From Jiella endophytica (GTDB taxonomy: Bacteria; Pseudomonadota; Alphaproteobacteria; Rhizobiales; Rhizobiaceae): a stretch of 64,000 nt of DNA. This document shows positions 41,737-60,151 of the stretch, one piece after another. Every line of letters starts with the position of its first letter. Position 1 is the first letter of the stretch. The notes beneath the pieces were generated by a model. It ran no database searches and was not told the origin of the DNA. It saw nothing but the letters and a program-made list of their open reading frames with translations. Where the stretch lies: positions 682,001 to 746,000 of the forward strand of contig NZ_SOZD01000001.1 in assembly GCF_004519335.1 (NCBI RefSeq). Reading direction: 5' to 3'. Both the position numbers and the translations under genes were made by a program.

Positions 41737-41775
41737 GGATGGGTGGCCGAGCGGTTGAAGGCACCGGTCTTGAAA
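41737..41775 (+). pseudogene. tRNA-Ser(UGA) 5' half, stranded by integration
   Basis: These 39 nt are the 5' half of a serine tRNA: acceptor strand GGATGGG, D-arm TGGCCGAGCGGTTGAAGGC, and anticodon stem and loop up to CTTGAAA. The sequence after that diverges into prophage DNA, so no 3' half exists here. GGATGGG would pair perfectly with CCCATCC at the 3' end of the intact tRNA at 60062-60151, so this is probably the native host 5' half. Confidence 0.85.
41763..41775. other. attL core
   Basis: The 13-bp sequence ACCGGTCTTGAAA is repeated exactly at 60088-60100. It covers the anticodon stem and loop of tRNA-Ser. The flanking bases differ at both ends, so this is the identity core of the attachment site. 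The distance between cores is 18,325 bp. Confidence 0.85.
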
Positions 41776-41882
41776 TTCGGTCGCGGCCGTTTTCAGCCGT
41801 CGCGGTGTGTACCGAAACCCCCTGCTTTATCAGGCTTTCGCGCTGTTGCTATCCCTGATCGTCTTGCCCAATCTCGTGTCGT

Positions 41883-41913
41883 GCTACCGAGTTGGGTAGC
41901 AAAATGGTAGCAA
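41883..41913. repeat. Left integrase arm-type sites
   Basis: Two direct copies of GGTAGCAA lie at 41895-41902 and 41906-41913, exactly 11 bp apart, with an inverted GCTACC at 41883-41888. The same pair, also 11 bp apart, occurs inside the right end at 59990-59997 and 60001-60008. Matching repeats about 80-140 bp inside each att core are what is expected of arm-binding sites for a tyrosine integrase. Confidence 0.6.
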
Positions 41914-41961
41914 GGTGTTCGCCGGCTGTTCCCGGCAGATCCACGCTAAATGGAATGCGAC

Positions 41962-42147
41962 ATGCCTCGAACAGCCGCCACGATCACGCAGGCCGACGTT
42001 GTGCGGACGATCCGCGCGGCGAAGCAGGCTGGTGCGGTGGAGGTCGAGATCCGACCGGACGGGACCATGATCGTTCATCTCAAGGAGCGACCGCCCCTCG
42101 CTGCGACTAAGCCAACGCTTTCGTGGCCCAAGGACGTGGTGCTCTGA
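41962..42147 (+). CDS. Small prophage protein, unknown
   Basis: This is a 61-aa protein beginning MPRTAATITQADVVRTIRAAK. It is followed by VEVEIRPDGTMIVHL, a short helix then two strands, a layout common in small proteins of rhizobial prophages. The start may be this ATG or the in-frame ATG at 41950. Neither has a strong ribosome-binding site. It is the first gene inside the left end and reads inward. The function is unknown. Confidence 0.55.
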   Translation: MPRTAATITQADVVRTIRAAKQAGAVEVEIRPDGTMIVHLKERPPLAATKPTLSWPKDVVL

Positions 42148-42198
42148 AAGATGAAGCGCTGCGTCGGTGCTCCCGTTGGGCAACATTAGGAGGTGCAT

Positions 42199-42405
42199 AT
42201 GCCTATGAGTGAAAAATTCGAAGTGAAGGAAGGCACCAAGTTCACGTTTCACGTCGAGGTGCCCCTAACCCGGCTATCCGTAGCGTTTGCAGACGGGTCC
42301 CAAGTTTCCGCGATTCTTGCTGACGGACAAACCCTAGAGGTTCAGGCCGGACGGATGGGATGCGATGTGACGATAGACGATGCAGACCTAGATCCGTCAG
42401 CGTGA
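42199..42405 (+). CDS. Small prophage protein, unknown
   Basis: This is a 68-aa protein starting MPMSEKFEVKEGTKFTFHVE with a strong AGGAGG 5 nt upstream of ATG 42199; ATG at 42205 is an alternative. It is mostly short beta-type segments and ends acidic (DDADLDPSA). Base composition is lower in GC than the host genes. I do not recognise it. It belongs to a rightward group of three small genes at the left end, a usual place for cargo genes. Confidence 0.6.
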   Translation: MPMSEKFEVKEGTKFTFHVEVPLTRLSVAFADGSQVSAILADGQTLEVQAGRMGCDVTIDDADLDPSA

Positions 42406-42458
42406 CACTTCGTTTCACGCGCCCTTCCCTCTAAAACGGTCGAGCAGTGGAGGTAGAC

Positions 42459-42848: not shown

Positions 42849-42866
42849 CGTGAATCTACAACGCCC

Positions 42867-43838
42867 TCACGCCGCCTTGGCGCACACCATCTGATCGAAC
42901 AGCCGGGGCGTCAGATAGATGACCTCGCCGGGCTGCATCGCAGCGGCTTTGCGCAGCCGATATCGTCTCCCTTGCATGCGCTTCATGCAGCGTTGCGAGC
43001 AATAGATCGACCGATCGGACCTTGGCGTGAAATTCTCGCCGCAGAGGTCACACTGTCTGACGATATGCGCCAAGCTTTCGCGCGTCTTCTGCCATCGGGC
43101 ATGCTGTTTGCACGCAAGAGAGCAATAGGTCTGCTCTCGTCGCAGGGGCCTGCAGGTTTTGCCACATTGCTGGCAAGTGATCTCGGGAAGCCGGACGCGG
43201 GCGGCAACACATTTCGGAGAGCAGAAGCGAGAGCCTGCGTGCTCGCCATGGAATGGCTTGCCACAGTATTCGCATGGCCGAGGCGGGGTCTTTGCCCTCA
43301 GAACCATCCGATAAGCCTGCCGCAGGACGGTTCCCACATACGCGTCTGACTTTGCATCACGGTGCAGGAGTGCGGACTTCGCGCATTCCACTGAACAGAA
43401 ACGCGACCGCTTGCTCCGCCCCGCGTCATCCATCGGCCCGCGGCACCACGCGCAATATTCGGCGCCGTCCGCATAATCCGGTTGCCCCTCTTCCCAGGTC
43501 GGGCGCGGCACCCCGAATCGCTTCAATGCCTCATCGACAATCTCTTTGGCTTCGCGGTCGGCTTGGCGCCAGCCGTGACCATCCATGCATAGCGCTGATC
43601 GAACACCGTGCCGCGCCGGCCCTTCGTTTTCGAACGGTGTCAGATGGAATCCCGTCATGCCATCAAAGAGGCGATCGACGAGACTTTGCCGGCGAGATCC
43701 ACTGATGATCGGCTTGGTCTTACGGGAACCCGGCAGCGTCACCTGCGTCTCGGAGCTGTACCGGAAGCTGGACATCCCGGTGAAAAGCCCGTGCTTATAG
43801 AAGTGATGATCGCGACCGCGAGGTTTCCCTATCGTCAT
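42867..43838 (-). CDS. Four-zinc-knuckle protein of the prophage
   Basis: This is a 323-aa protein whose C-terminal 200 residues hold four tandem CxxC...CxxxC units. Each runs from a pair such as CAWC, CEYC, CQQC or CDLC to a second pair in FCSVEC, FCSPKC, YCSLAC or YCSQRC, with about 13-17 residues between. They look like small treble-clef or MYM-like knuckles. The N-terminus GKPRGRDHHFYKHGLF resembles the KHG opening of some phage DNA-binding proteins. The end is basic (RMQGRRYRLRKA). It is the last gene of the leftward unit, just after the tail genes. I infer nucleic-acid binding, but the function is unknown. M22 at 43775 is an alternative start. Confidence 0.7.
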   Translation of the reverse strand: MTIGKPRGRDHHFYKHGLFTGMSSFRYSSETQVTLPGSRKTKPIISGSRRQSLVDRLFDGMTGFHLTPFENEGPARHGVRSALCMDGHGWRQADREAKEIVDEALKRFGVPRPTWEEGQPDYADGAEYCAWCRGPMDDAGRSKRSRFCSVECAKSALLHRDAKSDAYVGTVLRQAYRMVLRAKTPPRPCEYCGKPFHGEHAGSRFCSPKCVAARVRLPEITCQQCGKTCRPLRREQTYCSLACKQHARWQKTRESLAHIVRQCDLCGENFTPRSDRSIYCSQRCMKRMQGRRYRLRKAAAMQPGEVIYLTPRLFDQMVCAKAA

Positions 43839-43841
43839 GGC

Positions 43842-44492
43842 TCAAAGCTTCTGTACCGCCGAAAAGCTCAGACGGCTCGTCAGGGCTGTGACGGTCTCTG
43901 CATCGAGCGAGTTGGGCCGCAGGATGCACTTCATCGCTGGGTGCAGGAGTGTCACCGGAAGGCCCACGGACGCCCCAAGCGGGACGAACGGACGGATTTC
44001 AAAGAGCGCGGTCGTGCCGGAGCTGTTGCCGGCAATCGCCGTCTCGACAATGCGGTGGAATGCCCGTCGCGCCGGTGTGCCGTAGTCGAAGCACAGGAAG
44101 TCGCCAAAGCTCAGCGTGTACAGTCCCGGCAAGCCGGTGAGGCTGATCGAGCGGCCGTTGGAACTGATCGAATTGATGGTCGGGGTCGCGCCGCCGAGCT
44201 TCGACCCGTCCGGATCGTATTGCGGGAATCGGCGCTTCGGGTCGACGAGATAGAAGGGGTTGATCGAGCCGTTCAGGCTTTCGAGGCGGGCCTGCAGCCT
44301 GTCGATCTCGTCGTGATATCGCTCGGCCGTCGTCACGTCCGCGGTCCACAGGGACGGCGCCAGTTCGGTGGCCAGGATCTGCCCGGAGCCCATGCCCGAA
44401 ATTTCCTGGTTATCCTGTGCCACCCATTTCACGGAGGCGATCGGCAGGAGGTCGGACAGAAGCGAACGATCGAGGGGGAAGGTCAGGGTCAT
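43842..44492 (-). CDS. Prophage tail-region protein, unknown
   Basis: This is a 216-aa protein starting MTLTFPLDRSLLSDLLPIAS, with a central beta-rich segment (SISLTGLPGLYTLSFGDFLCFDYG). I recognise it as similar in style to a protein found after the tape measure in rhizobial siphoprophages, but I cannot name a domain. Its place directly after the tape measure and a small protein suggests a distal tail or tail-completion role. The start at 44492 is 11 nt downstream of the previous stop. The longer upstream frame has no similarity. Confidence 0.6.
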   Translation of the reverse strand: MTLTFPLDRSLLSDLLPIASVKWVAQDNQEISGMGSGQILATELAPSLWTADVTTAERYHDEIDRLQARLESLNGSINPFYLVDPKRRFPQYDPDGSKLGGATPTINSISSNGRSISLTGLPGLYTLSFGDFLCFDYGTPARRAFHRIVETAIAGNSSGTTALFEIRPFVPLGASVGLPVTLLHPAMKCILRPNSLDAETVTALTSRLSFSAVQKL

Positions 44493-44502
44493 CGCGGATT
44501 CC

Positions 44503-44856
44503 TCATGCGAACACTGCGTCGAACATGGCGGGTGAAAGCGGCTGGCTGGACGTCCGCGGGGCGGCGCCGGGCTGCTGTCCATCGGACTGCTGACGGCGAG
44601 CACGGGCCATCCAGGCGTCCTCCATCTTGCGGAGGACGGCGACATGCCGGGGCTCCAGCGGCAGCCGGTTCATCCGGGCATAGGCCTCGATCTCGGCGTA
44701 GCTGATCGGGTCCGGCCCGGCCATGCTGTAGCGACGGGCCTGGTGAAGGTCGACGAACCACGACCATAGGAGCCTGCCAGCCTCCGGCACGCGGGGCTTG
44801 TCCTGCGTCACCGCGGCGACGAGCTGCCGCTCCAGCCTCTGCATGGCGGGCGTCAT
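44503..44856 (-). CDS. Phage protein, possible tail assembly chaperone-like
   Basis: This is a 117-aa protein with an N-terminal helix and the segment GPDPISYAEIEAYARMNRLPLEPRHVAVLRKMEDAWM. That segment is frequent in small tail-region proteins of alphaproteobacterial phages and resembles the C-terminal part of tail assembly chaperones. It overlaps the tape-measure stop by 4 bp (ATGA). A chaperone would be expected before, not after, the tape measure, so the name is tentative. Confidence 0.6.
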   Translation of the reverse strand: MTPAMQRLERQLVAAVTQDKPRVPEAGRLLWSWFVDLHQARRYSMAGPDPISYAEIEAYARMNRLPLEPRHVAVLRKMEDAWMARARRQQSDGQQPGAAPRTSSQPLSPAMFDAVFA

Positions 44857-46970
44857 CCCCGCCTCCGGGGATCACCGGAGATTTGCTGCACGCGGTCGGC
44901 CAGAGCATGCCGGGAGAAGTCCGTTACCGCCCGGTTCGCCGCCGTAGCGGCTGAGGCGTCGGCGACGTCCTTCACGTAGGCCTGCAGGTTGCCCTTTTTG
45001 TCTACGGTGACGCCGACCATGACATTGACGTCCTGACGCCCCGCCGGCATCGCCTGCGCTGATGGTGCGGCGGTCTCGCGCGGGGTGATTGGCGCCAGAG
45101 CATTATTCGGAATGATCGATCCGGACGTGCCGGGGGAGAACAGCTCCGGGCCTTTTTCGCCGACGAGGTAGGTCTTGCCGGAATTGACCGGGCCGCCCGC
45201 CGCTCGGGCGCCACCGAACAGCGACGCCACCGCCGAGAACAGACCGCCGAGCCCGCCGCCGCCCTTCGGGTCGAACAGGCTGTTGAGGGCCATGTCCGCC
45301 AGCTTGTCGGCGATCTTGCCGAGGGCGTTCGTCAGCGCATCAGCGGCCGAGGTGCCGCTTCGCAGATCCTGGATGAAACCGCCCATCACGTCCTTGCCGA
45401 GATCCCGCATTTCCGCGGCGGACTCACGGACAAGGTCCTGCTTCTCGTCGAGCTTGCGCGCCTCTGCCTGTGCGTTGGCGTAGGCCGTGGCCAGCTGCTC
45501 GATCTGCTCGCGAAGCTCAGGCGTTACCTCCACACCGGCGCGCTTTGCCGCGGTGAGAAGATCCTGCTCGGCCCGGACCTTCTCCAGGCTGAAGCCGTAG
45601 TCGTCGATCAGCGGATTGAGTTCGGCCTGCGCTGCCGTCTCTGCCTCGATCGCGGCCGTCTGCTCCTCGATCTGCCGCGTTTCGCGTTCGTACCTGTCGA
45701 CGGTGTCCTTTGCCGTTTTGCTGCCCTTGCCGCCCTTGCTCGCCGAAGGAAGGGTGAAGTCCTTCAGACTGACGGCGCCTCCGTCCTTGCTTCCGAGGCG
45801 AGCGGCCTTGTCGGCCGTGGTGGCGCCGGTGCCGGCGGTGACATCGAAAGCCGAGGCAATGCGGTCGTCGACGACGGAGCCGGTGCCACCAACATAGCTC
45901 TGGGAGAACCGGCGGGCCGCCTCGGCGCTGTAGTCGACGCCCATCATCTCGCCGAGCCGGCGCCAGACCGGCGAGTTGCCGACGCTGTCCAGCCAGGTTT
46001 CGAGAGCCTGGAAGCTTCTCGCGGCGGCATCGATATATTCCGGCATCGCCTGAATGACCTCGGCGACGGCGTCGAGGTTTTCGGTGGCATTCTTCGATGC
46101 GCCGGTGACCTCGTCGAGATGACCGATCAGGAGCGTCATGGCCGTGCCGATCCGGCTCATCGACTGAGAGACTGTTCCCTCGGCACGACCGGCTTGCTCG
46201 GCGAGACTTTCCGATCCGGCGAGGAAGGCCCGGAAGAACGCCTCGGAGGACACCTTGCCGTCGAGGACGAGAGAACGGAGCGTCGAGACCGAACCGCCGG
46301 CCTCCTTCAGCCCGTTCGCCACTGCCTGCAGGATCGGCCGTGCGCCTTCGTTGACCGAGTTGAACTCCTCGGCCCGGATGACACCGCCGCCGAGAGCCTG
46401 GGAGAGCTGCAGGAGCGCGCCCTGCGCTTCGGTGGCCGATGTCCCTGCCACTCTCAGAGCGGTTGCCACGCCTTCGGAGAACTTCAGGAGGTCGCCCTGC
46501 GAGGCGTTCAACTCCTTCGAAGACTGCGAGGCGCGCGAGTAGAGTGTCACCAGTGCGTCGAGGGGTGCCCCCTGCCGCATGGCAATCTGTGAAAGGCTGC
46601 CGAATGTGCTCTTCAGCTGTTCGCCTTCGAGTCCTGTAACCTTGAGGGCGTTTTGCAGGTCGCGATACTGCGCAGCGAACCGGGCGATATCGCCGAGGGC
46701 CTTGCTGCCGGCATAAGCCGCGAGACCGGCGGCGAATGCCTTGCCGTAGCCTCCGATCCGGGTGGAGGTTGCAGCGAGGGCCTGATTGATGCGGGAGGTC
46801 GAGCGGACAACGTCGCGCTCCATCGCCGAGGTGGCGCTGCGGCTGTCCCGGCGCATCTTGCCGAACTCGCGTCCGGTGGTCGCGCTGGCCTTGGCCATGT
46901 TGCGCTCGAGGTCCTTGATCCTGGCTTCCACCAGGACGATCAGACGCTCGCCGTCAGTTACATTCGACAC
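44853..46970 (-). CDS. Tail tape measure protein
   Basis: This is a 705-aa protein with the N-terminal tape-measure domain: a coiled-coil start (ERLIVLVEARIKDLERNMAKAS), then FAAQYRDLQNALKVTGL and GGVIRAEEFNSVNEGARPIL. A Gly/Ala-rich membrane-like segment lies near residue 80. The C-terminal 150 residues carry ALGKIADKLADMALNSLFDPKGGGG, a common ending. By the usual length rule this would give a tail of only about 100 nm. It follows terL by 9 bp. Confidence 0.9.
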   Translation of the reverse strand: MSNVTDGERLIVLVEARIKDLERNMAKASATTGREFGKMRRDSRSATSAMERDVVRSTSRINQALAATSTRIGGYGKAFAAGLAAYAGSKALGDIARFAAQYRDLQNALKVTGLEGEQLKSTFGSLSQIAMRQGAPLDALVTLYSRASQSSKELNASQGDLLKFSEGVATALRVAGTSATEAQGALLQLSQALGGGVIRAEEFNSVNEGARPILQAVANGLKEAGGSVSTLRSLVLDGKVSSEAFFRAFLAGSESLAEQAGRAEGTVSQSMSRIGTAMTLLIGHLDEVTGASKNATENLDAVAEVIQAMPEYIDAAARSFQALETWLDSVGNSPVWRRLGEMMGVDYSAEAARRFSQSYVGGTGSVVDDRIASAFDVTAGTGATTADKAARLGSKDGGAVSLKDFTLPSASKGGKGSKTAKDTVDRYERETRQIEEQTAAIEAETAAQAELNPLIDDYGFSLEKVRAEQDLLTAAKRAGVEVTPELREQIEQLATAYANAQAEARKLDEKQDLVRESAAEMRDLGKDVMGGFIQDLRSGTSAADALTNALGKIADKLADMALNSLFDPKGGGGLGGLFSAVASLFGGARAAGGPVNSGKTYLVGEKGPELFSPGTSGSIIPNNALAPITPRETAAPSAQAMPAGRQDVNVMVGVTVDKKGNLQAYVKDVADASAATAANRAVTDFSRHALADRVQQISGDPRRRG

Positions 46971-46979
46971 AGGATCACC

Positions 46980-48608
46980 TCACGCATAGGCCCAGGCGTC
47001 GACATCGTCGTCGGCGCTGTCGTAGCTGGATCGGTTGCTCTCGCCGCTGGCGCATCGGGACACGGCCATCGCCGAAGCCACGGCGCCGTCGATCGAGAGC
47101 CACTGCCGGGACTTGGTGAACTTGGCGACGTGCCCCTGATCGTTGCGCTTGACGACGACGTTGGCGAAGCAGTGCCGCAGGACGGGATGGGCGCCATGGT
47201 GGAACTCGCCGCCCAGCACGGCGCGTTCAAGCTCATGGATCGCCGGCATCATGAGCGACGGGACCTGTCGGAAGTCGACGGCCGGCAGACCCTTCTCGAT
47301 GATCTTCGGCTGGACCTGCCGCGCCATGAAGGGATCGAACGCGATCTCGCGAACGTCGAAGTCCTCGCAGATGTTGATGATCTTGTTCTCGATGTCCTGA
47401 TAGCTGACGACGTTGCCGGGGGTGGGCAGAATGTGCCCATCCTCAGCCCACGCGCCATAGTTGGCGCCCGCCTTCACCTCGCGCTCGGCGATCGTTTCCT
47501 CCGGGCAGAAGAACCACGGATGGACGAAATACCCGTCTGCCGTCCGCCAGCACGCGACGATGACGGAAAGGTCGACGGTCGAGGAGAGATCGACCGCCAG
47601 CCAACAGGGCTCCTCGCGGAGGTCGTCGAGATCGTAGCCGCGGCGCCCGGCGTCGTAGACCTCCATATCCACGAAAGGATCGGCTGCGGCGTCGAGCCAG
47701 ATATTGAGCTTCAGCTGCTTCAGGGACTGCCGCTCGCCGACACTGCGGTCGGCCCGCTTGGCATGGCGCCGGAAACCGTCGAGGCTGGGATAGCCGTGCT
47801 TAAGGCCGGGGTTAACCTGATGCCAAAGATCCTCGTCGCGCCAGTCGGCATTGCGGTCGGCTTCGAACAGGATCGGCAGGATTGACGGATCGTCGACCTC
47901 GCCGCGTGCCACCTTGCGGGCGTCGTCGATCACCTCGAAAGCCAGATTGTCGTCACCGCGCCCGGCAGTCGTCGCGACGATCAGCAGCGGGTTGTCGGTC
48001 TTGTCGAGGCCGGTGGTGAGCGCCTCCCAAAGGTAGCGGTTCGGCCAGATATGGATTTCATCGGCGAGGACGAAGGCAGGCGTTCGGCCGTGCTGCGGCC
48101 CGGCATCGCCGGAAATGACCTCCAGGTAAGAGCCCTCTTTCGGATAGGTGATCTTCTTCGCCGAGTTGTGAGCGTCATAGACGCGGGTCGCGGCGACGAT
48201 GCGCTTGTCCTCTCTGACGATGCCCACCGCCTCCTTGAAGGCGATGCCGGCTTGCTTGCGATCGGCCGCGGCGAAGATGCACTCACCGGCAGGCTCACGC
48301 TCCGGGCCGATGGTGTGCAGCATGGAAAGGGCCGCCGAGATCGAGGTCTTGCGGTTGCCGCGGGGGAGCAACAGCACCACCGTCTTGACGATCCTGGTGC
48401 CATCGTCGTGGCGCGGGCCATAGATGCGCCGGACGATGCGCTCCTGCCATTCGTCGAGCTGGAAAGCCCGCTTCGGCAGAATGGACTTCGGATGCCGGAG
48501 GGACCGCAGGAAGCGGACCGCCCGCTCGCCATAGCCCAACGGATCGTCGATCTCGCTGCCGTCGTAGATCCACTCAGGAAACGTCGAGCGGGTTGTCACC
48601 GTCGTCAT
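46980..48608 (-). CDS. Terminase large subunit
   Basis: This is a 542-aa DNA-packaging motor of the Terminase_1 type. The ATPase P-loop reads VVLLLPRGNRKTSISAAL. Walker B is in AFVLADEIHIW, and the coupling motif is in LIVATTAGRG. The C-terminal nuclease has acidic residues in LAVDLSSTVDLSVIV, IAFDPFMARQ and DDDVDAWAYA. It overlaps terS by 35 nt. It lies downstream of head and tail genes rather than first, which is unusual. Confidence 0.94.
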   Translation of the reverse strand: MTTVTTRSTFPEWIYDGSEIDDPLGYGERAVRFLRSLRHPKSILPKRAFQLDEWQERIVRRIYGPRHDDGTRIVKTVVLLLPRGNRKTSISAALSMLHTIGPEREPAGECIFAAADRKQAGIAFKEAVGIVREDKRIVAATRVYDAHNSAKKITYPKEGSYLEVISGDAGPQHGRTPAFVLADEIHIWPNRYLWEALTTGLDKTDNPLLIVATTAGRGDDNLAFEVIDDARKVARGEVDDPSILPILFEADRNADWRDEDLWHQVNPGLKHGYPSLDGFRRHAKRADRSVGERQSLKQLKLNIWLDAAADPFVDMEVYDAGRRGYDLDDLREEPCWLAVDLSSTVDLSVIVACWRTADGYFVHPWFFCPEETIAEREVKAGANYGAWAEDGHILPTPGNVVSYQDIENKIINICEDFDVREIAFDPFMARQVQPKIIEKGLPAVDFRQVPSLMMPAIHELERAVLGGEFHHGAHPVLRHCFANVVVKRNDQGHVAKFTKSRQWLSIDGAVASAMAVSRCASGESNRSSYDSADDDVDAWAYA

Positions 48609-48954
48609 CCGCCGCGTCCTCCCTCATAGCTGGCCGCGACCGCGACACAGGAGTGAGGCCGAGTTCCGCGGCGAGGAGCCGGGCCGTCGCCATCGCCTTG
48701 TCTTGCGCCCGGAAGGTCGGAGCGTCGAAGCCAGCCGCGAGGAGCGTTTCCAACTGCCGGACGCGGCCGATCGAAATGCAGTAGTTTTCGAAGCTCGCCA
48801 TGTCGGCGTCCGTCAGGATGCGGCGCTCGACGAGGAGCGGCATGACGCGGCGCCATTCTGCCTTGGCTTCCTTCGACATCCAGTCGGGAGGGGCTTGCAC
48901 AGGTTTATGCAGGCCCCCGTTGTCGATGATCAGCTGCGGCTTGCGTCCCTTCAT
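48574..48954 (-). CDS. Terminase small subunit, P27 family
   Basis: This is a 126-aa protein of the P27-type small terminase family. It opens MKGRKPQLIIDNGG and continues with PPDWMSKEAKAEWRRVMPLL and LTDADMASFENYCISIGR, a typical helical pattern. The C-terminal LAAELGLTPVSRSRP is the conserved tail of the family. It recognises phage DNA for packaging. It overlaps the head-closure gene by 4 bp. Confidence 0.9.
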   Translation of the reverse strand: MKGRKPQLIIDNGGLHKPVQAPPDWMSKEAKAEWRRVMPLLVERRILTDADMASFENYCISIGRVRQLETLLAAGFDAPTFRAQDKAMATARLLAAELGLTPVSRSRPAMREDAADDDGDNPLDVS

Positions 48955-50380: not shown

Positions 50381-50383
50381 TTC

Positions 50384-51147: not shown

Positions 51148-51153
51148 GGGTGA

Positions 51154-52822: not shown

Positions 52823-53331
52823 GGGTTGGTCCTCATGGTGAGCGCCGCCGTGGCGCGGTTGATGGCCTCGGCGAGCGCTCGGGCCGCGTCGAAGGATTTC
52901 GAGTGGGTGATGCGAGCTTCCGGGTGCGAGGGCTCGCGGACGATGGACACCTCGACGAGCTCGATTGCCGAGAGCACCCTGTTGCGGCCGCGCCGGGTCG
53001 AACCGCGGTCACGGAAGCCGATGGAAAGGCCGTTGAGGCGACCGGTCAGGATCTGCGAGCGCACACCGCGCGCCAGCATCGATTCCTTGAGGTTGAGCCG
53101 CCCTTTGACGTGAAGCCCGTCGTCGCGCTCCTCGATCGTGTTCCACAGCCCGATCAGGGAATCGGTGTCGTGGTTGCGGAGCATCGGCAGCTCGGCCACC
53201 GGCAGCCGCAGCGCACCTTTCACGATGATGTCGCCGGCACGGTCCGGTGTCGCGTAGGGCCAGGCGATGCCCTCGATCGTGCCGTCCACCTCGACGGCGA
53301 GCTGCTTCGTGGTGAGCGTCAGATGGTCCAT
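52819..53331 (-). CDS. HK97-type prohead protease
   Basis: This is a 170-aa serine protease of the U35/Peptidase_S78 clan. The catalytic His lies in LRNHDTDSLIGLW and the catalytic serine region in LTGRLNGLSIGFR. ELVEVSIVREPSHPEARI is the conserved third motif. It should cleave the capsid delta domain. It overlaps both neighbours by a few bases. Confidence 0.92.
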   Translation of the reverse strand: MDHLTLTTKQLAVEVDGTIEGIAWPYATPDRAGDIIVKGALRLPVAELPMLRNHDTDSLIGLWNTIEERDDGLHVKGRLNLKESMLARGVRSQILTGRLNGLSIGFRDRGSTRRGRNRVLSAIELVEVSIVREPSHPEARITHSKSFDAARALAEAINRATAALTMRTNP

Positions 53332-53717
53332 CAGGCATCCCCCCGATGGGCGGTGCGATCAACGGCGAAGGCGTCGACCTGCTGCTGCACCCAATGGACC
53401 CGGAGAAGCCGAAGGAGGTTTGCCGTTGTGAACGGCACCGGCTGGCCAGCCTCGACGATGTCCCAGCGGATGACATGCCTGGCGAGGGCGTTGAGCCGCG
53501 CCTTCTCCCGGTTCGTCGCGCTGATCTTGCCTTCGATATCCGCCATCTCGGCGAGTTCGTCGGCGAAAGCGATACGCGCCCGGTTCGCCGTGTCGCTATC
53601 CGGTCCGACGATCCAGAGCTTGATGCCGGTCGGCTTGCTGTCGATCGGATCGGCGAGTTCGAGTTCTTTGCCGCGGTCCTGGTCGGCGACGTTGTGCAGG
53701 ATCTCGTCAAGCGTCAT
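53331..53717 (-). CDS. Prophage protein between portal and protease, unknown
   Basis: This is a 128-aa protein starting MTLDEILHNVADQDRGKELE, with KPTGIKLWIVGPDSDTANRARIAF in the middle. It resembles small proteins in the same slot of other rhizobial HK97-like prophages and may be a head protein. The start is taken at 53717, inside the portal gene's last 11 nt. Its stop shares a base with the protease ATG. Confidence 0.6.
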   Translation of the reverse strand: MTLDEILHNVADQDRGKELELADPIDSKPTGIKLWIVGPDSDTANRARIAFADELAEMADIEGKISATNREKARLNALARHVIRWDIVEAGQPVPFTTANLLRLLRVHWVQQQVDAFAVDRTAHRGDA

Positions 53718-54930
53718 TGGTCGCGGGCTCCTGCGGTGCGGCAGCGCCGGCAGCGCCTTGAGGGGCGCCGGTGGTCGGGTTGATGTGCGGATTGCCGAAG
53801 CTCTCACCGCCCTCCCGCGGGCCGAGGCCGAGCCAGTCGCGACCTTCGTTGCGGTTCAGCACCTCGGCGCTGATCAGGCTGGAGACGGCAGTCGCGCGGG
53901 CAGTGAGGTCGACGGCCGAGAAGTCGTCTCGATCGAAGCGGACGCGCCATTCGGGCCGCTCTTCAGGCGAGAACAGCGCGCGACGCATCGAACTTTCGAG
54001 GGGTCGAAGCCAGAACTCCAGGCCGGCGAGCCATTCCTTCTGCGCCGACTCCATGTTGCTCCAGGTCTGACGCGAGAAGTCGTAGAGGGCACCGGGCGGG
54101 ACGCGGAAGTGTCGGCCGATCTCGTTGATGGCCCACTGCCATGTCTCGATCATCTGCGCGTCGACCGATGTCATGGTCATCTGCGCCCATGTCGCGCCGT
54201 CGAACAGCACCGCGGTCTTGCCGCTGCTGTCCGGGCCTTCATGAGCAGCCTTCCAGCCCTTGAGCATCCGCTTGATGCCCTCGTCGCCGATCGCCTTGGG
54301 CGTGGTGATGACACCGGAGGGACGGGCCGCGCGGGAGAAGAAACTGCCGACATGTCTTTCGAGCTTGGCCGCAACGCCGATGGCGCCGGCAGCAAGCCGC
54401 AGCGGGCACTTCTCGAATGGACCGCGAATGTGGATGACATCGGTCGGCGGAACGGGGCGGTTGCCGATGCGATAGGACGGCTCCGCCCGCCCATCTGTCG
54501 AATAGTCGACGGTGAAGCTGCCCGAAGCGTAGTGGACGATCTCGACTGGCCGCCCGCTGGTCTTGTTCACCCAGGCGAGCGCGCCTTCGTTGTTGCAGAG
54601 CGCCGCGGCGACCAGATCCCGGATTAGTGTGTAGGTGTCGCTCCAGTCGTTCGGCTGGTCGGACAGGAGATCGGCGACGGGATGGGGTGCGGCCTTCCAG
54701 CTGTCGCCGTCGCGCCGCTCCACCATCAGGTCAAGCGAGGCGATCGAGCCGGAGATCAGGGAAATGGCACTTGCGACCGCCGGCACTTCCAAGGCCTGCC
54801 GACCGGTGACGGCGTAGTCGGCGACCAGGCCGCCGCCGAACAGCTCGAACATCCAGTCCTCGGGGACGGACGTGCCGCTCGGGGTCGCTTTCGTCTCAAT
54901 CGGTGCAGTGCGGGCAAAGGGCCATTTCAT
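53707..54930 (-). CDS. Portal protein, HK97 family
   Basis: This is a 407-aa portal of the Phage_portal family. It has the expected core AVASAISLISGSIASLDLMVER, NDWSDTYTLIRDLVAAALCNNEGALAWV and RNRPVPPTDVIHIRG-like segments. WAINEIGRHFRVPPGALYDF and EGRDWLGLGPREGGESF follow. The C-terminus is Ala/Gln-rich. It is the first structural gene of the leftward unit, after a 135-bp gap with an inverted repeat. Confidence 0.93.
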   Translation of the reverse strand: MKWPFARTAPIETKATPSGTSVPEDWMFELFGGGLVADYAVTGRQALEVPAVASAISLISGSIASLDLMVERRDGDSWKAAPHPVADLLSDQPNDWSDTYTLIRDLVAAALCNNEGALAWVNKTSGRPVEIVHYASGSFTVDYSTDGRAEPSYRIGNRPVPPTDVIHIRGPFEKCPLRLAAGAIGVAAKLERHVGSFFSRAARPSGVITTPKAIGDEGIKRMLKGWKAAHEGPDSSGKTAVLFDGATWAQMTMTSVDAQMIETWQWAINEIGRHFRVPPGALYDFSRQTWSNMESAQKEWLAGLEFWLRPLESSMRRALFSPEERPEWRVRFDRDDFSAVDLTARATAVSSLISAEVLNRNEGRDWLGLGPREGGESFGNPHINPTTGAPQGAAGAAAPQEPATNDA

Positions 54931-55037: not shown

Positions 55038-55058
55038 GTCACGCGTGATCCGCGTGAC
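55038..55058. promoter_or_regulatory. Inverted repeat upstream of the structural genes
   Basis: A perfect 8-bp inverted repeat GTCACGCG / CGCGTGAC with a 5-nt spacer lies between the winged-helix gene and the portal gene. A related GTCACGTGAT lies just beside it. No T-run follows on either strand, so an operator or processing site is more likely than a terminator. The adjacent winged-helix protein is the obvious candidate ligand. Confidence 0.45.
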
Positions 55059-55065
55059 GGTAACG

Positions 55066-55323
55066 TTAGCCGATACGCGGACCGTACCGGTAGCCGGGGC
55101 CCTGTCGGTGAATTTTGGCGACATAGATCGTGATAAGGCCTCGCTCGGCGAGCCGACGCAGGGCCCTGGAAGTGGCGGCTTGCGTTGATGCAGTATTCTT
55201 CAGCCCCAGCGCTTTGATCAGATCTTCCGCCCGCGCAAAGGCCGGCATGTGATTGCCCGTGTTCGAGTAATGCTCCAGCGCCGCCAAAAGGTTGCGCTGG
55301 AGAGGGCTAAGCCCGCGTCCCAT
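55066..55323 (-). CDS. Winged-helix DNA-binding protein
   Basis: This is an 85-aa protein with a predicted winged helix: SPLQRNLLAALEHYSNTGNH, then FARAEDLIKALGL and AATSRALRRLAERGLITIY, the last being a recognition helix plus wing. It ends with GYRYGPRIG. It is placed directly before the structural genes and may act as a late regulator, though that is inference from position. It is 4 bp downstream of the HTH gene stop. Confidence 0.65.
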   Translation of the reverse strand: MGRGLSPLQRNLLAALEHYSNTGNHMPAFARAEDLIKALGLKNTASTQAATSRALRRLAERGLITIYVAKIHRQGPGYRYGPRIG

Positions 55324-55327
55324 CGCT

Positions 55328-55567
55328 CTATCCAGCCCTCCGTTCGTTAGACTTCAGCCAGTCGAGAAGTTCCGCCCTGGAGGCGTAGATCTGCCCGCCC
55401 TTGCGGACTTGCCGGATCGGTGCGCCTGCCTCTCGCATCGACCGCACCAGATCCGGGCCGCAGCCGAGGAAACGCGCGATGCCGCTCGCCGTCCATACGA
55501 AATCGGTCTCGGTGGTCCGCGTCAACCGGTCGAAGGCGCGAGGGGTAAGGTCGCCGCGGTCGGTCAT
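55328..55567 (-). CDS. Helix-turn-helix DNA-binding protein
   Basis: This is a 79-aa protein with an excisionase/MerR-like helix-turn-helix: VWTASGIARFLGCGPDLVRSMREAGAPIRQVRKGGQIYASRAELLDWLKS. The pattern is that of small phage regulators or DNA-binding terminase-like subunits. The start at 55567 overlaps the initiator-like gene by 4 bp. Its role may be regulatory or in packaging; the sequence does not decide. Confidence 0.7.
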   Translation of the reverse strand: MTDRGDLTPRAFDRLTRTTETDFVWTASGIARFLGCGPDLVRSMREAGAPIRQVRKGGQIYASRAELLDWLKSNERRAG

Positions 55568-56478
55568 GCAGCCTCCCGATGATGTACCAGCTGAGAAGCC
55601 CGCCAGCGGAACCACTCCTTCCGCTCGTGCGGGAAGGCGGCCCAGTGGCACGGCATGAACATCTCGTCGCTGTCAGTCGCCCGGTCGAACGCCTCCTGTG
55701 TCACTCGCTCGATCGCGCCGGCCTCCAGATCCTGCCCGCCGGTCGTCTCGATCACGAACCGATCGAAAACAGAAAGGAAGTTGAGGTCATCACCCCATGA
55801 GCCAGGTGAACGGAACGGATTCCCTCGCGCACGTGCGTGTGCGTAAGAGCCAGACTTTCCTTTCGTGGCGAATCTCGAATTATCAGGGGTATTATTATCA
55901 GGAGTATTCGGAACCCCGTCGTTCCGTTCACCTGCCCGATTTGTTCCGTTCACCTCGGGTGTTCCGTTCACTTCCGTTCCGTTCACCTCGGAAGTGTTCC
56001 GTTCACCTCCTCCGACAGCGGTCTTGACGCTGTTGCGCAGGGACTGAATGCGACCCGCGATCCCGGTCGGCGACGGCTCCCGAGCAGAGATCGGCAGGGC
56101 GGATGTGACCGGCACCGTGAGATAGATGCTGCGGACGCGGCCGATGACTTCTCGGTTTTCGTCGCGCTTGGGTATCGTCTTGCGCTCGATGTAACCGAAA
56201 CCATCCAGTGCTCGAAGACCCTTGCCGATGTTCCTCTCAGAGGTTTGCAGCTTGATCGCGAGTTGCTCGTCGGTCGGGTAGCAATAGAGGTCCTGGCGGT
56301 TGAGATGGTCCGCCAGGATGCCGGCAATTCGGATGGCAATCTTCGGCATCTTCTTTTCTGCACATGCGCGGCGCCGCCAGTCGTCGCGTCCCAGGTGGAA
56401 GCGATGATCATCACCGGGCTTGCCGAAGTCCACGCGCTTCCGATCTGGTTGTTCCTCGTTCGGCCCTTTGACTTCCAT
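55564..56478 (-). CDS. Replication initiator-like helix-turn-helix protein
   Basis: This is a 304-aa protein. Residues of about 45-125 form a helix-turn-helix domain of the kind seen in phage initiators (KIAIRIAGILADHLNRQDLYCYPTDEQLAIKLQ, RNIGKGLRALDGFGYIERKT). Residues 180-235 are repetitive and hydrophilic (GERN, VNGT units). The C-terminus is a separate small domain (FDRFVIETTGG...MPCHWAAFPHERKEWFRWRAS). The repeats in the middle are encoded by iteron-like DNA, as in lambda O. The start at 56478 shares a base with the previous stop. No helicase or primase gene is visible, so host replication proteins would be needed. Confidence 0.7.
   Translation of the reverse strand: MEVKGPNEEQPDRKRVDFGKPGDDHRFHLGRDDWRRRACAEKKMPKIAIRIAGILADHLNRQDLYCYPTDEQLAIKLQTSERNIGKGLRALDGFGYIERKTIPKRDENREVIGRVRSIYLTVPVTSALPISAREPSPTGIAGRIQSLRNSVKTAVGGGERNTSEVNGTEVNGTPEVNGTNRAGERNDGVPNTPDNNTPDNSRFATKGKSGSYAHARARGNPFRSPGSWGDDLNFLSVFDRFVIETTGGQDLEAGAIERVTQEAFDRATDSDEMFMPCHWAAFPHERKEWFRWRASQLVHHREAA
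55804..56008. other. Putative replication origin with iterons
   Basis: Five copies of GTTCCGTTCACCT lie at 55921, 55943, 55961 (one mismatch), 55976 and 55996, with spacings of 22, 18, 15 and 20 bp. One inverted exact copy is at 55804-55816. Between the inverted copy and the array is an AT-rich stretch (ATTATCAGGGGTATTATTATC). Iterons beside an AT-rich segment inside an initiator gene are the arrangement of lambdoid origins. Confidence 0.6.
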
Positions 56479-56672
56479 CACATCGCCCTCGCTCTGATCA
56501 GGCCGGCCTCGCGGATGGCCTGGCATGCTTCGACGGGTGTTAGACCGAACCGGCGCCGAAGCGCCGGAACGATCGGAAGGGGCCGGGTCTGTTGACCGGC
56601 GAGCCAGCGGGCCGCCTCGTCGATCGCGGCGCTGTGCTCGTGCTCGGGAGGGGTCAGAGGACTGTCAGTCAT
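56478..56672 (-). CDS. Small prophage protein, unknown
   Basis: This is a 64-aa protein with an acidic start MTDSPLTPPEHEHSAAIDEA and a helical, HTH-like C-terminus PIVPALRRRFGLTPVEACQAIREAGLIRARAM. A strong GGAGG lies 6 nt upstream of the ATG. It overlaps both neighbours. Similar proteins occur in early regions of rhizobial prophages. The function is unknown. Confidence 0.65.
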   Translation of the reverse strand: MTDSPLTPPEHEHSAAIDEAARWLAGQQTRPLPIVPALRRRFGLTPVEACQAIREAGLIRARAM

Positions 56673-57130
56673 CGGGCACCTCCGATGTTGCCGAAACGTT
56701 CCTGAAAAGATTTCCGACGAGCGGGTGCCTGCTTGGCGTCTCCAAGCTTGTCGGCCTCCAAGCGGACCCTGAGACATGGGATATTGCGGCGCCTGTGCTC
56801 GGCGAGGATGCGGGTCAGAACCTGCGGATCGCGACCGGACTCGCACTCTTCCTTCCGGCCATTGACGATCCGCTGGACCCGCCACTCATCCGGCATGAGG
56901 TCGGTGCTGCGAACCCACCACCATTCAACCTTCTCGACGACGGGAGCAATGCGAACCCGCTGCCCATCACTGGCCTTGCCGAGCCGGTCGGCGTTGTCCG
57001 TTCCGAACCATCGCCGGGCAAGCCTTGCCTCTTCGTCGCTGTAGACGGCCCGGGCGGGGGCGCTATCGCCCCCGAACCATTTCTGCCGAAGCTGCCGCTC
57101 CAGTTCCTCGTCGCTGATCTCGTCAGTCAT
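56669..57130 (-). CDS. Early prophage protein, unknown
   Basis: This is a 153-aa soluble protein with an acidic N-terminus (DEISDEELERQLRQKWFGGD) and a central KVEWWWVRSTDLMPDEWRVQRIVNGR. The C-terminus is basic. No known domain is recognised. It is coupled to the next gene by ATGA and belongs to the early leftward cluster. Confidence 0.6.
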   Translation of the reverse strand: MTDEISDEELERQLRQKWFGGDSAPARAVYSDEEARLARRWFGTDNADRLGKASDGQRVRIAPVVEKVEWWWVRSTDLMPDEWRVQRIVNGRKEECESGRDPQVLTRILAEHRRRNIPCLRVRLEADKLGDAKQAPARRKSFQERFGNIGGAR

Positions 57131-57140
57131 CGCCGCCCCC

Positions 57141-57407
57141 TCAATGCTGCAGCGCCGGCTCTTGGGCCGGGGCGAGAGGTTCGGGACCGGCAGCAGCCGT
57201 CAGCGCAAGGTCGGACAGAGCCGATCGCGAGAGGACGATCTTCGCCTGGACGACATACTCGGCAGCGCCGGTGTGCGGGCACCGCTGGACGCTGTAAAAC
57301 GTCAGCCGCGCCATGCCGTCGCCGAGGTCGTCGGCCGTTGTGCACCCCGACACGTAGATGTCGGACACGCCGAAGGGCTCGCTGAGTTGGAGGTTCCGGC
57401 GGCTCAC
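57141..57407 (-). CDS. Small early prophage protein, unknown
   Basis: This is an 88-aa protein with a beta-rich core FGVSDIYVSGCTTADDLGDGMARLTFYSVQ and an Ala/Pro-rich tail. The pattern SDIYVSG..D.G.ARLTFY recurs in small unknown proteins of rhizobial phages. Its start overlaps the upstream stop in ATGA. Confidence 0.6.
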   Translation of the reverse strand: MSRRNLQLSEPFGVSDIYVSGCTTADDLGDGMARLTFYSVQRCPHTGAAEYVVQAKIVLSRSALSDLALTAAAGPEPLAPAQEPALQH

Positions 57408-57628
57408 AGCTCGTCCTCCATTTCGAGGTCATACTGCCAGCCGGCATCCGTAGGGTAGCTGCTGCCGCCGAGGTCCGGTTCGTCGTCGCCGACGTCCTCA
57501 AGGTCCGCGTCGCCGTCAAGCAGGTCGAGCAAGCCGATAAGCCGCTCGATCTCTTCACCAATTAGGTGGCGAATGCTTTTACGAATGGACGCCTGCTGGC
57601 CTTCGGTGGTAATGGTGTCAGTGTGCAT
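57404..57628 (-). CDS. Small acidic early prophage protein, unknown
   Basis: This is a 74-aa acidic protein. Its first half is helical (IRKSIRHLIGEEIERLIGLLDLLDGD) and its second half is disordered and acidic (LEDVGDDEPDLGGSSY). This type is common in rhizobial prophage early regions. Its start is inside the end of the 31-aa ORF. Function unknown; an acidic small protein of this kind could be a host-interaction or DNA-mimic protein, which is speculation. Confidence 0.6.
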   Translation of the reverse strand: MHTDTITTEGQQASIRKSIRHLIGEEIERLIGLLDLLDGDADLEDVGDDEPDLGGSSYPTDAGWQYDLEMEDEL

Positions 57629-57713
57629 TGACTAAGCCCCATTTGGTTGATGTCAGAGGCTCGGCAGGATGGCGGTCCTGGCCGGGCCTTTTCGTTTTCG
57701 GGGAAGACGTCAT
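57618..57713 (-). CDS. Very short ORF, possibly translated
   Basis: This is a 31-codon ORF (MTSSPKTKRPGQDRHPAEPL and on). Its ATG overlaps the excisionase-like stop in ATGA, and its end overlaps the next gene start by 11 nt. The overlap pattern is the only support for translation; the sequence is low-complexity. Confidence 0.35.
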   Translation of the reverse strand: MTSSPKTKRPGQDRHPAEPLTSTKWGLVNAH

Positions 57714-57916
57714 GCGGCGTCCCCGATCCTGGCTTTGAGCCCGACCTTCTCGGCCAGCGACACGACCGGCACCAACAGGCGCCCGCCGATCTTGATTGTC
57801 GGAATGTCCCCTCGCCTCGCCGCTTCGTATGAGGCGCACCGCCCCAATCCGTAGAACACCGATCCTGCGTCAGGGACAGAGATTGTCGGGCGCCGTAACG
57901 CCTCGTCGATAGTCAT
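57710..57916 (-). CDS. Excisionase-like DNA-binding protein
   Basis: This is a 68-aa protein with a MerR-like/AlpA-like helix-turn-helix: ISVPDAGSVFYGLGRCASYEAARRGDIPTIKIGGRLLVPVVSLAEKVGL. This matches the domain family of excisionases and small prophage activators. It is the first gene of the leftward unit, about 30 bp from a palindromic operator. Proteins of this kind either direct excision with the integrase or regulate. The start is placed at 57916. Confidence 0.72.
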   Translation of the reverse strand: MTIDEALRRPTISVPDAGSVFYGLGRCASYEAARRGDIPTIKIGGRLLVPVVSLAEKVGLKARIGDAA

Positions 57917-57946
57917 CTGCGTTCCGTCTCCGTTCTCTTCGATCCA

Positions 57947-58020
57947 GCACAACTTGTGCCGATAATGGATTCTTAATCATTTTCCGTGCGAGGTCAATCC
58001 ATCCTTGTGCCAGTTGTGCC
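57947..58020. promoter_or_regulatory. Divergent early control region with TTGTGC boxes
   Basis: Between the leftward and rightward early genes, a 13-bp palindrome GCACAACTTGTGC lies at 57947-57959. Two direct copies of TTGTGCC follow at 58005-58011 and 58014-58020, and the region between is AT-rich (GGATTCTTAATCATTTTCC). The repeated half-site suggests binding of the adjacent ribbon-helix-helix protein or a host factor to control both directions. Confidence 0.55.
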
Positions 58021-58067
58021 TATTTCGTATGGAGTGGAGGATAACGATTGAAGTGAAGGTCAATAAG

Positions 58068-58835
58068 ATGGTCAAAAAGCCGCGCGAAAATCGCGTGCCG
58101 ATCATGATGTCAGAGGAAGAACTGCAGGCGATCGACGATTGGCGGTTTGAAAACCGCATTGCGACACGCTCCGATGCGATACGTCGCTTGTGCAAGATCG
58201 GTCTGGTCGCTGACCAAGAACTCGATCAGATAGTTGACATCGCCAGCAATGGCGTGAGCACCCTTGTGGAGCAGTCCGCCGATATCGCTACGGCCTACAA
58301 ATCTCTGGTAAATTTTGACACAGAGAATGTTTTATTTGGACGATCCGAAGTAATAGATATATTGGACCTTGCTTTTGATCACGCAGATGTTGCCGAGCGT
58401 GGAATGATTGGATTGCATGCTATGCTTGTAACGTTATTCGGAATTATTAATTCTATTGTTGATGCGGCTACGCTCAGTGATGGAATGCGCGAGTCAGAAA
58501 GGCGGATCGCCGAAGCGAGTGAAGCAACAGAAAACGCGATTGCCAAGCAAAAAGAACGTGAAGAAAATCGATACATAAGCATTCATGTTAATAACGAAAG
58601 CTCGGAACAGAGAGAGGTATACGAAAAGCTTTCGGACGAGGAAAAAGATAAATTTTGGGAAGGGCGAATTGCGGAACTCAAAGCTCTTGAGGAAGCTGAT
58701 CCTGAGGATTTCGCGAAACGCTTCGATATTGCGCCTCCTTTCTGGGAGCAGCCCGGTTGGCTAACGCGATTGCAGGAAAGATTTAAGCGGAAGGAAAATG
58801 GAGAGGTTGGTCGCGACGGAGGAAGATCGAAATGA
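58068..58835 (+). CDS. Ribbon-helix-helix protein with helical C-terminus
   Basis: This is a 255-aa protein whose first 45 residues fit a ribbon-helix-helix DNA-binding domain (ENRVPIMMSEEELQAIDDWRF, then RIATRSDAIRRLCKIGL). The rest is largely alpha-helical: a hydrophobic segment (IGLHAMLVTLFGIINSIVDAAT), a coiled-coil stretch (SERRIAEASEATENAIAKQKE) and a charged C-terminus. The DNA is markedly AT-rich from 58200 to 58800. The start at 58068 is uncertain; earlier in-frame starts exist from 58005. The stop overlaps the integrase ATG by 4 bp. It is a candidate lysogeny regulator for the TTGTGC boxes just upstream. Confidence 0.65.
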   Translation: MVKKPRENRVPIMMSEEELQAIDDWRFENRIATRSDAIRRLCKIGLVADQELDQIVDIASNGVSTLVEQSADIATAYKSLVNFDTENVLFGRSEVIDILDLAFDHADVAERGMIGLHAMLVTLFGIINSIVDAATLSDGMRESERRIAEASEATENAIAKQKEREENRYISIHVNNESSEQREVYEKLSDEEKDKFWEGRIAELKALEEADPEDFAKRFDIAPPFWEQPGWLTRLQERFKRKENGEVGRDGGRSK

Positions 58836-59980
58836 AAGGGCACATCCGCGAGCGTTCCCCCGGTCGTTGGGCGATCATCCTCGACGTCCCCGATCCTGAA
58901 ACCGGCAAGCGCCGCCGCAAGTGGCACAGCTTTGCCGGCACGAAGCGGCAGGCCCAGGAGGAATGCGCGCGGCTCGTCTCGCTGATCAGGCACGGCGGCT
59001 ATACCGAGCCGACGAAGACCACCCTCGCCTCTTACCTCGATCGCTGGCTCGATCACGTGAAGACCGGCGTTTCGCCGAAGACCCATGAGCGCTATGCCGA
59101 GATCGCCAGGAAGAACATTGTCCCCCTCCTCGGCGATGTCACCCTGTCCAAGCTGAAGACCGAGCGAATCGATGCAGCCTGGACGAAGGCGTTGGAGAGC
59201 GGCCGGCGGGACGGCAAAGGCGGATTGTCACCCCGCACCGTGCATCACATGCGCCGCGTCCTGATCAAGGCGCTCAATCAGGCGGTGACTTGGGAGATGG
59301 TCGCGAAGAACCCGGCGACGGCATCCAAGCCGCCGAAGGTCGAGCGTAAGCAGATGGGCGCATACGGCGCCACCACGACGGCCGAGCTGCTGGAGGCCGT
59401 GCGGCCTACCCGGATCTTCGTCCCGGTTCTCCTCGCTGTCCTGTGTGGCCTGAGACGAGGCGAGATTGTCGCCCTGCGCTGGAGAAATATCGACCTTGAG
59501 CGCCGAACCATCGCCGTCGTCGAGACCGCAGAGCAGATTAACGGCGTTGTCAGGCTGAAGGAAACGAAGTCGGGCCTGGCTCGCGTCGTCAGCTTGTCCT
59601 CGACGGTCGTTGAAGAGCTTCGCGCTCATCGAGTAAGGCAAGCCGAGGAACAGCTGCGGCTCGGTCTCAGGCTAGACGACGACGCTTTCGTCTACGCCCA
59701 GGTGGACGGTCGTCTCGTACAGCCTCGGTCTCTGACGCATGAGTGGTCGCGAATCACCGCCAAGCTTGCTCTGACCCGCATCCGCTTTCACGATCTGCGG
59801 CATAGCCACGCGACGCAGATGCTCGCTGCCGGGGTCCACCCGAAGATTGCGCAGGAACGGCTTGGCCATTCGACGATCGCCATCACGCTCGACCTTTACA
59901 GCCACGTGATGCCGGGCATGCAGGAGGACGCGGCCGAGCAGGTTGACGCCGCGATCCGGCGGGCGGTAAAGCCTGCCTAG
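58832..59980 (+). CDS. int: Tyrosine recombinase / phage integrase
   Basis: This is a 382-aa site-specific integrase. An N-terminal arm-binding/AP2-like region (GRWAIILDVPDPETGKRRRK) is followed by a SAM-like core-binding domain (residues about 65-165) and the catalytic domain. The catalytic residues are visible: Arg in LCGLRRGEIVALRW, H-x-x-R in FHDLRHSHATQML, His in LGHSTIAITLDLYSHV, and Tyr in LDLYSHV. It lies about 110 bp from the attR core, so it is the enzyme for this element. Confidence 0.95.
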   Translation: MKGHIRERSPGRWAIILDVPDPETGKRRRKWHSFAGTKRQAQEECARLVSLIRHGGYTEPTKTTLASYLDRWLDHVKTGVSPKTHERYAEIARKNIVPLLGDVTLSKLKTERIDAAWTKALESGRRDGKGGLSPRTVHHMRRVLIKALNQAVTWEMVAKNPATASKPPKVERKQMGAYGATTTAELLEAVRPTRIFVPVLLAVLCGLRRGEIVALRWRNIDLERRTIAVVETAEQINGVVRLKETKSGLARVVSLSSTVVEELRAHRVRQAEEQLRLGLRLDDDAFVYAQVDGRLVQPRSLTHEWSRITAKLALTRIRFHDLRHSHATQMLAAGVHPKIAQERLGHSTIAITLDLYSHVMPGMQEDAAEQVDAAIRRAVKPA

Positions 59981-59989
59981 TGGCCGTTC

Positions 59990-60008
59990 GGTAGCAATTC
60001 GGTAGCAA
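59990..60008. repeat. Right integrase arm-type sites
   Basis: Two direct GGTAGCAA copies at 59990-59997 and 60001-60008 are 11 bp apart, the same unit and period as at the left end. They start just after the integrase stop. This supports arm-type binding sites for the integrase. Confidence 0.6.
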
Positions 60009-60061
60009 CAGCCTTTTTCGGGCAAGGCGGAAATCCGAAAACGCTAACGAAATCAAGGCAC

Positions 60062-60151
60062 GGGTGGGTGTCCGAGTGGTTTAAGGAACCGGTCTTGAAA
60101 ACCGGCGTGCGTGAGAGCGTACCGTGGGTTCGAATCCCACCCCATCCGCCA
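60062..60151 (+). tRNA. tRNA-Ser (anticodon UGA)
   Basis: This is a complete class II serine tRNA with a long variable arm. The anticodon stem CCGGT / ACCGG encloses the loop CTTGAAA, with TGA at 60096-60098. The T-arm is GTGGG TTCGAAT CCCAC. Acceptor strands are GGGTGGG and CCCATCC, with one G-U pair at position 3-70, a discriminator G and encoded CCA. The 5' half up to 60100 comes from the prophage; the 3' half is host. Confidence 0.95.
60088..60100. other. attR core
   Basis: This is the exact copy of the 13-bp attL core ACCGGTCTTGAAA, inside the anticodon arm of the intact tRNA-Ser. The recombination point therefore splits the tRNA, and the sequence to its left is of element origin. Confidence 0.85.

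Follow-up and report, generated by a model that had tools for sequence, protein, structure and literature searches.

We report that a prophage of about 18,325 bp in Jiella endophytica has very probably (probability about 0.94) split the only tRNA-Ser(UGA) gene of its host, stranding the host promoter and the native 5' half of the gene at its left end and rebuilding a chimeric gene at its right end. The element lies in a 64,000-nucleotide stretch of DNA (positions 682,001 to 746,000 of contig NZ_SOZD01000001.1, assembly GCF_004519335.1), which we refer to as the window and by whose internal positions all features are given. The genome that holds the window (G000, contig C11 in our numbering) is a 5.25-Mb, 28-contig assembly estimated to be 97% complete.

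The only tRNA gene that ARAGORN finds in the window is a forward-strand tRNA-Ser(TGA) at 60062-60151. Its 5' half (60062-60100) recurs on the same strand at 41737-41775 with 34 of 39 bases identical, and our recalculation of this identity (87%, five differences) agrees with the initial annotation. Both ends of the element carry the block ACCGGTCTTGAAA (41763-41775, forward strand, and 60088-60100), beyond which similarity ends in a sequence comparison. As the two ends have this block in common and then diverge, we place the crossover within the anticodon arm, where the attachment (att) core had already been proposed to lie. The stop codon of a tyrosine integrase gene (58832-59980, forward strand) is found 81 nt ahead of the complete tRNA, so the integrase sits at the complete-tRNA end of the element, and the displaced 5' fragment sits with host upstream DNA at the other end. 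Two copies of GGTAGCAA at 11-bp spacing, conserved in relatives of the integrase, lie between integrase and tRNA (59990-60008, forward strand), and the same motif occurs twice at this spacing near the left end (41895-41916, forward strand); we take both pairs to be putative arm-type binding sites of the integrase.

To assign the two 5' halves, we compared the window with its relatives. The left flank has homologues in five congeners with an empty site (G002, G003, G006, G007 and G008), where this DNA leads without interruption to a complete tRNA-Ser(UGA). At 39 of 39 positions, the orphan at 41737-41775 (attL, forward strand) agrees with the native 5' half in G008 and in G002, both of them empty. 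The complete tRNA of the window is preceded by the integrase and the GGTAGCAA repeats. Across the genus, four of ten genomes have an element-fronted tRNA (two of them after decay of the element) and five are empty, G004 making up the tenth; in one of the four, G009, a full-length integrase that is 94% identical to that of the window lies ahead of the tRNA. With decayed G001 and G005 set aside, a second 5' half is present in six of the eight other genomes that have an integrase, or a piece of one, before tRNA-Ser(UGA). G163, G070 and G028 have it on the contig of the tRNA (17.7, 29.0 and 15.8 kb away, respectively), and G149, G089 and G129 have it on a different one.

The same arrangement recurs around related integrases. 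We compared 55 loci with integrase relatives (51 + 4, some of the IMG/VR loci duplicating genome loci), and in 32 of them a same-strand tRNA starts 12-111 nt past the integrase stop codon: Ser(UGA) in 25, Ser(CGA) in three and selenocysteine (SeC) tRNA in four. The exact pattern of arm repeats followed by a tRNA-Ser 5' half is found in 15 of 297 genomes of the family, representing 13 of 109 genera, and the backwards control gave no match, which argues that the arrangement is not due to chance. The pattern also occurs in 19 IMG/VR stretches, three of which (L169, L173 and L182, the first two identical over this region) have a free attP form: the same arm repeats as in the window element precede a 5' half that stops at CTTGAAA and continues into non-tRNA DNA. 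Together with the upstream DNA of the five empty congeners and the integrase loci, these free forms bear out the proposal that the element supplies the 5' half. A genome assembly locus, L116 (2670-2990), has by eye an attP-like layout of integrase and a Ser(CGA)-like 5' half that stops at the core, followed by GGTGGCAA repeats.

Several observations weigh against this interpretation. Empty G003 and G007 have 5' halves closer to the phage half than to the orphan (2 versus 3 differences in each), as does G004 (1 versus 4). The host right flank is confirmed in one relative only, G004, and no match to the left flank was found in the 10 kb examined upstream of its tRNA. Two of the eight genomes above, G143 and G009, have no second 5' half (the G009 contig starts 8.8 kb before the tRNA). 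Among the 55 loci, 20 have no tRNA within 130 nt, several of these being fragments or contigs that end there, and in a further three the tRNA within this distance lies on the opposite strand (L023 Trp, L027 Cys and L030 Leu). A scan for sigma-70-like promoters also found none in the phage leader; as it found none in the host promoter region either, we do not consider it diagnostic.

The nearness of the G003, G007 and G004 halves to the right copy is what one would expect if the complete gene on the right were wholly native and the left fragment had arrived with the element. Likewise, apart from position 3, the whole right gene equals the tRNA from genus g26 (80 bases shown, among the matches listed), so it is the geometry of the insertion and not sequence that assigns the 3' half (60101-60151, forward strand; right flank homologous to G004) to the host. 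This reverse assignment is contradicted by the left-flank DNA that precedes complete tRNAs in the empty congeners, by the integrase and arm repeats found ahead of the right copy in the window and ahead of its counterparts in other elements, and by the free attP contigs, which have arms and a 5' half; we regard it as extremely improbable. The initial annotation had named an uninserted relative resembling the right copy as evidence that would tell against its reading, and G003 and G007 go part of the way towards this, whereas G008 and G002 equal the orphan exactly. As empty genomes can have phage-like halves, the sequence of a half alone cannot separate host from phage; linkage to upstream DNA decides, and on this basis we retain both the reading that the element supplies the right-hand 5' half and the reading of the orphan as the native half.

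From these data, we propose that a tyrosine integrase would recombine attP, in the order integrase, arm repeats, tRNA 5' half and core, with the only tRNA-Ser(UGA) gene, in its anticodon arm. As attP would carry this order, integration would leave the left end with a stranded host promoter and native 5' half, and would form at the right end a complete chimeric gene composed of phage leader, phage 5' half and host 3' half. The lysogen would then read UCA with the hybrid tRNA only, transcription of which would start in the 81-bp phage leader or read through from int, and the hybrid would be charged with serine well enough for viability. The junctions imply that the attP of the window phage itself carried the 5' half, and the prophage is predicted to be capable of excision.

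The geometry also implies that the element must bring a promoter for the tRNA. On the host side, an invariant CTTGC box and a similar -10-like block stand directly before the complete tRNA in the five empty congeners, and in the alignment both precede the orphan of the window (CTTGC at 41696-41700 and GGGTAAGC at 41718-41725, forward strand), where they would represent the stranded tRNA promoter. The phage leader contains a conserved GCTAACGA, a possible -10 element at a host-like distance to the tRNA, and AATCAA, which is IHF-like (together 60043-60056, forward strand). Only the -10-like block is conserved on the phage side, and as it resembles the sequence at L027, whose tRNA points the opposite way, it may be an att feature. 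The claim that the element brings the promoter thus follows from the geometry, whereas the scan identified no such promoter. In the dead elements of G001 and G005 the arm repeats have changed and GCTNACGA and CANGGCA are kept. As the element-fronted gene itself is kept in these genomes after decay, the phage leader appears to serve as the tRNA promoter region over evolutionary time.

Dependence of the host on the hybrid gene would follow from its single copy. Ser(UGA) is one of 47 tRNA hits in G000, the remaining serine tRNAs being CGA, GCU and GGA, and no other tRNA is expected to read UCA. As neither tRNA-Ile nor tRNA-Ala(UGC) was found among these hits, some tRNAs must be missing from the set of this 97%-complete assembly. 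The decayed sites in G001 and G005 add a second line of evidence. Integrase remnants in G001 are matches of 16 and 29 residues only, and G005 retains by eye the last ~35 bp of the integrase gene together with the leader (79% identical). The distance from the expected start of the native half to the tRNA is ~3.0 kb for G001 and ~1.5 kb for G005, with unrelated genes in between; by eye, these sites (L047 7087-9725, and L052 2900-4280 on the reverse strand) hold CinA-like, NAD-synthase-like and ParB-like genes. Neither genome has a recognisable native half, the best upstream matches being 23 and 24 of 39 positions against 21 to 25 in other genomes, and in each, no tRNA-Ser(UGA) match other than the element-fronted gene was found. 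G001 weighs less, because its assembly is 84% complete with rpoB in four pieces. These retained genes strengthen the earlier suggestion of host dependence, which looks real and lasting.

The retained halves in G001 and G005 also raise the question of whether the window element is itself an immobile scar, with an inactive integrase and a tRNA that is now a fixed chimeric host gene. Also in favour of a scar, the genes recognised beyond the tape measure are limited to those for a tail chaperone, a distal tail protein and an HNH-type protein. Against this, the integrase frame is open (382 amino acids; PF00589, E 9e-25, and PF14659), arm repeats are present at both ends and most late genes tested have family matches. 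Furthermore, the element of G163, in another genus, is of similar size (5' halves 17.7 kb apart) and has homologous portal (71%), capsid (67%) and terminase (84%) genes, so ~18 kb is probably a stable genome size and a property of the lineage. We therefore consider an immobile scar unlikely, while granting it an appreciable share of the probability.

The gene content otherwise is that of a tailed phage. Markers inside the element include portal, terminase, tape measure and capsid (PF05065, HK97-type) genes. The late genes occupy 42867-54930 on the reverse strand and were assigned with Pfam and PHROGs: the HNH-type protein, distal tail protein, tail chaperone, tape measure and large and small terminase subunits, followed by connectors, major tail, HNH, capsid, protease and portal. 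Early genes, unknowns among them, follow on the same strand at 55066-57952 and have weak PHROGs matches; they include an excisionase/regulator-like (55328-55651) and a replication-initiator-like (55564-56526) gene. A repressor-like gene adjoins the integrase on the forward strand (58005-58835; phrog_4738, E 7e-7 over 41 residues). When we compared the gene content of 20 other loci with the window, often over ~10 kb per locus, only the integrase, with or without its neighbouring gene, was common to 16 and one or two additional weak matches were found in four. The integration module therefore appears to move from one element to another. The integrase matches 2142 of 50,697 phage records, every one at <60% identity, so no named phage can be assigned.

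Five positions distinguish the phage half from the orphan, namely 3, 10, 16, 21 and 26, counted from the start of the gene. Of these, 10 and 26 make up the D-stem pair 10-25, which is G-C in the orphan and U-A in the phage half. U10-A25 is also present in G001, G003, G004, G007 and G009 and, among the matches listed, in several other genera. An unrooted rpoB tree splits G001, G003, G004 and G007 from G000, G008, G006, G005 and G002 (support 0.774); G009 is absent because it gave no rpoB match. On the basis of the five differences, including this coupled D-stem change, the phage probably gained its half in a U10-A25 host and brought it into the G000 lineage, making the tRNA chimeric between lineages. 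The U10-A25 pair in empty G003 and G007 may be native to their clade or may have been left after prophage loss by recombination between halves, which tells against a simple account of origin.

With five substitutions only, the phage half could instead be a mutant of the native half that arose in place. Two of the substitutions, however, form a coupled transversion pair common to the G009 element, G001, G003, G004 and G007, and the two halves of the same-contig elements in G163, G070 and G028 differ at 0, 0 and 1 positions, which makes mutation in place very improbable.

Among the matches listed, congener pairs have the same visible 3' half and different 5' halves, with coupled G10-C25 or U10-A25 (g1, G008 versus G004; g23, G679 versus G634; g30, G038 versus G139). 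These pairs hint at repeated replacement of half genes, the alternatives being exchange of whole genes or old polymorphism. The acceptor stems of 43 element-made serine tRNAs (29 distinct; SeC tRNAs and attP contigs were excluded) have no mismatch, save one sequence with two Ns, and random re-pairing of these stems gave a mismatch in 617 of 812 cases (76%, not corrected for kinship). The minimum-energy folds of the hybrid and the rebuilt native tRNA are neither of them a cloverleaf.

The G-U acceptor pair noted in the initial annotation is pair 3-70 (bases 60064 and 60145): the phage half brings G3, where relatives have A3, and meets host U70 beside G1-C72 and G2-C71. Among 44 distinct tRNA sequences of G000, G3-U70 occurs in Ala(CGC), Ala(GGC) and the Ser(UGA) of the window only, and among the 43 element-made serine tRNAs in the window alone. 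In a survey of family tRNA-Ser(UGA) genes (258 of 297 genomes matched), only G000 starts with GGG among the matches listed; the G009 element has A3. The exact 39-mer of the phage half is absent from the viral_contigs set, from which records of the window genome itself were possibly excluded. G3 may have come with the phage or arisen afterwards, or it may reflect an error in the assembly.

Published work describes G3-U70 as the major determinant for alanyl-tRNA synthetase (AlaRS), transplantation of which can confer alanylation, and reports that changes of A73 in Escherichia coli tRNA-Ala, including to G73, modulate and do not block alanylation (PMC6451123). Natural non-alanine tRNAs with G3-U70 are described as substrates that cytosolic AlaRS can mischarge (PMC11415595), and a list of bacterial alanine identity elements also includes A73, G4-C69 and G20 (PMC9976931). 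The hybrid has G73 and U4-A69, which counts against strong mischarging. In reading frames that we selected, UCA accounts for 2 of 129 serine codons across four host genes; for seven phage genes the figure is 8 of 207. As UCA is rare, low-level insertion of alanine could be tolerated, and possible alanine/serine ambiguity at UCA is predicted. More tentatively still, and with low probability, the hybrid might be a dual-identity tRNA, charged by AlaRS through G3-U70, G1-C72 and G2-C71, such that alanine would be inserted at part of the UCA codons of the lysogen. On the same tentative reading, phages of this kind might in general shuttle 5' halves between hosts and create mosaic tRNA genes that outlive the prophage.

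The targets of this integrase clade may extend further. Clade integrases lie directly upstream of tRNA-SeC on the same strand at L062, L063, L026 and L028, and selC may be a further target that is restored at its 5' end. Relatives at L023 (6544-6678), L027 (685-830) and L030 (909-1073) stand beside tRNA-Trp, tRNA-Cys and tRNA-Leu in the usual 3'-restoring orientation. In a tree of 41 integrases, from which matches spanning <280 residues (L027 among them) and L089 (internal stop) were excluded, L023 groups with integrases that neighbour Ser(CGA) (support 0.917) within the 5'-restoring group, some nearby nodes being weak. The layout of L023 (integrase, arm repeats, tRNA piece, core) is unchanged, and tRNA polarity alone differs. 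The 17-base anticodon arm of Ser(UGA) matches its own reverse complement at 14 of 17 positions, and the Trp arm of L023 matches at 14 of 17 backwards and 15 of 17 forwards by hand count. The clade may thus have flipped polarity, L023 appearing in the 3' orientation as seen from its integrase-side end alone, and the near-symmetric core would permit such a flip.

Elements that displace a 5' tRNA fragment were reportedly described by Zhao and Williams in 2002, and we know of no difference in basic geometry between such elements and the one in the window. The arrangement is therefore already known; what is added here is a half from another lineage with G3-U70, and cases in which the element has decayed and the gene is retained. 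In the Islander survey, a 5' fragment is displaced in 159 of 3919 islands and sites are centred on the anticodon in 2083 (PMC4383910); the window element resembles the former in that the element restores the displaced 5' part, and the count agrees with the earlier statement that 5' restoration is rare among elements that use tRNA genes. In tRNA-dependent lysogeny, an essential, non-redundant tRNA is likewise broken, and the lysogen depends on the phage for the lost tRNA function; there, however, the phage brings a whole tRNA gene and no tRNA is rebuilt at either junction (PMC10865867), whereas here half a gene is brought, the tRNA is rebuilt at attR and the window has no other tRNA. The more usual 3'-restoring prophages are similar in their tyrosine integrase, tRNA target and restored gene, but leave the host promoter and 5' half in place, unlike the window element. 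A literature phrase search found no paper on phage-borne 5' tRNA halves, and passages of PMC9897764, PMC11476347 and PMC12884075 had nothing further on the 5'-restoring orientation.

The window element thus offers a clean case of a temperate phage that holds half of an essential host gene, present in a single copy, along with the DNA upstream of it. Empty sites, free forms of attP and remnants of decayed elements are all available for comparison. One integrase clade is suggested to be able to serve both tRNA polarities, and matching of the acceptor stem may limit the hosts that a phage can lysogenise. The system opens to experiment the way in which expression of a host tRNA is driven from a phage leader, and whether, through G3-U70, a phage can change tRNA identity.

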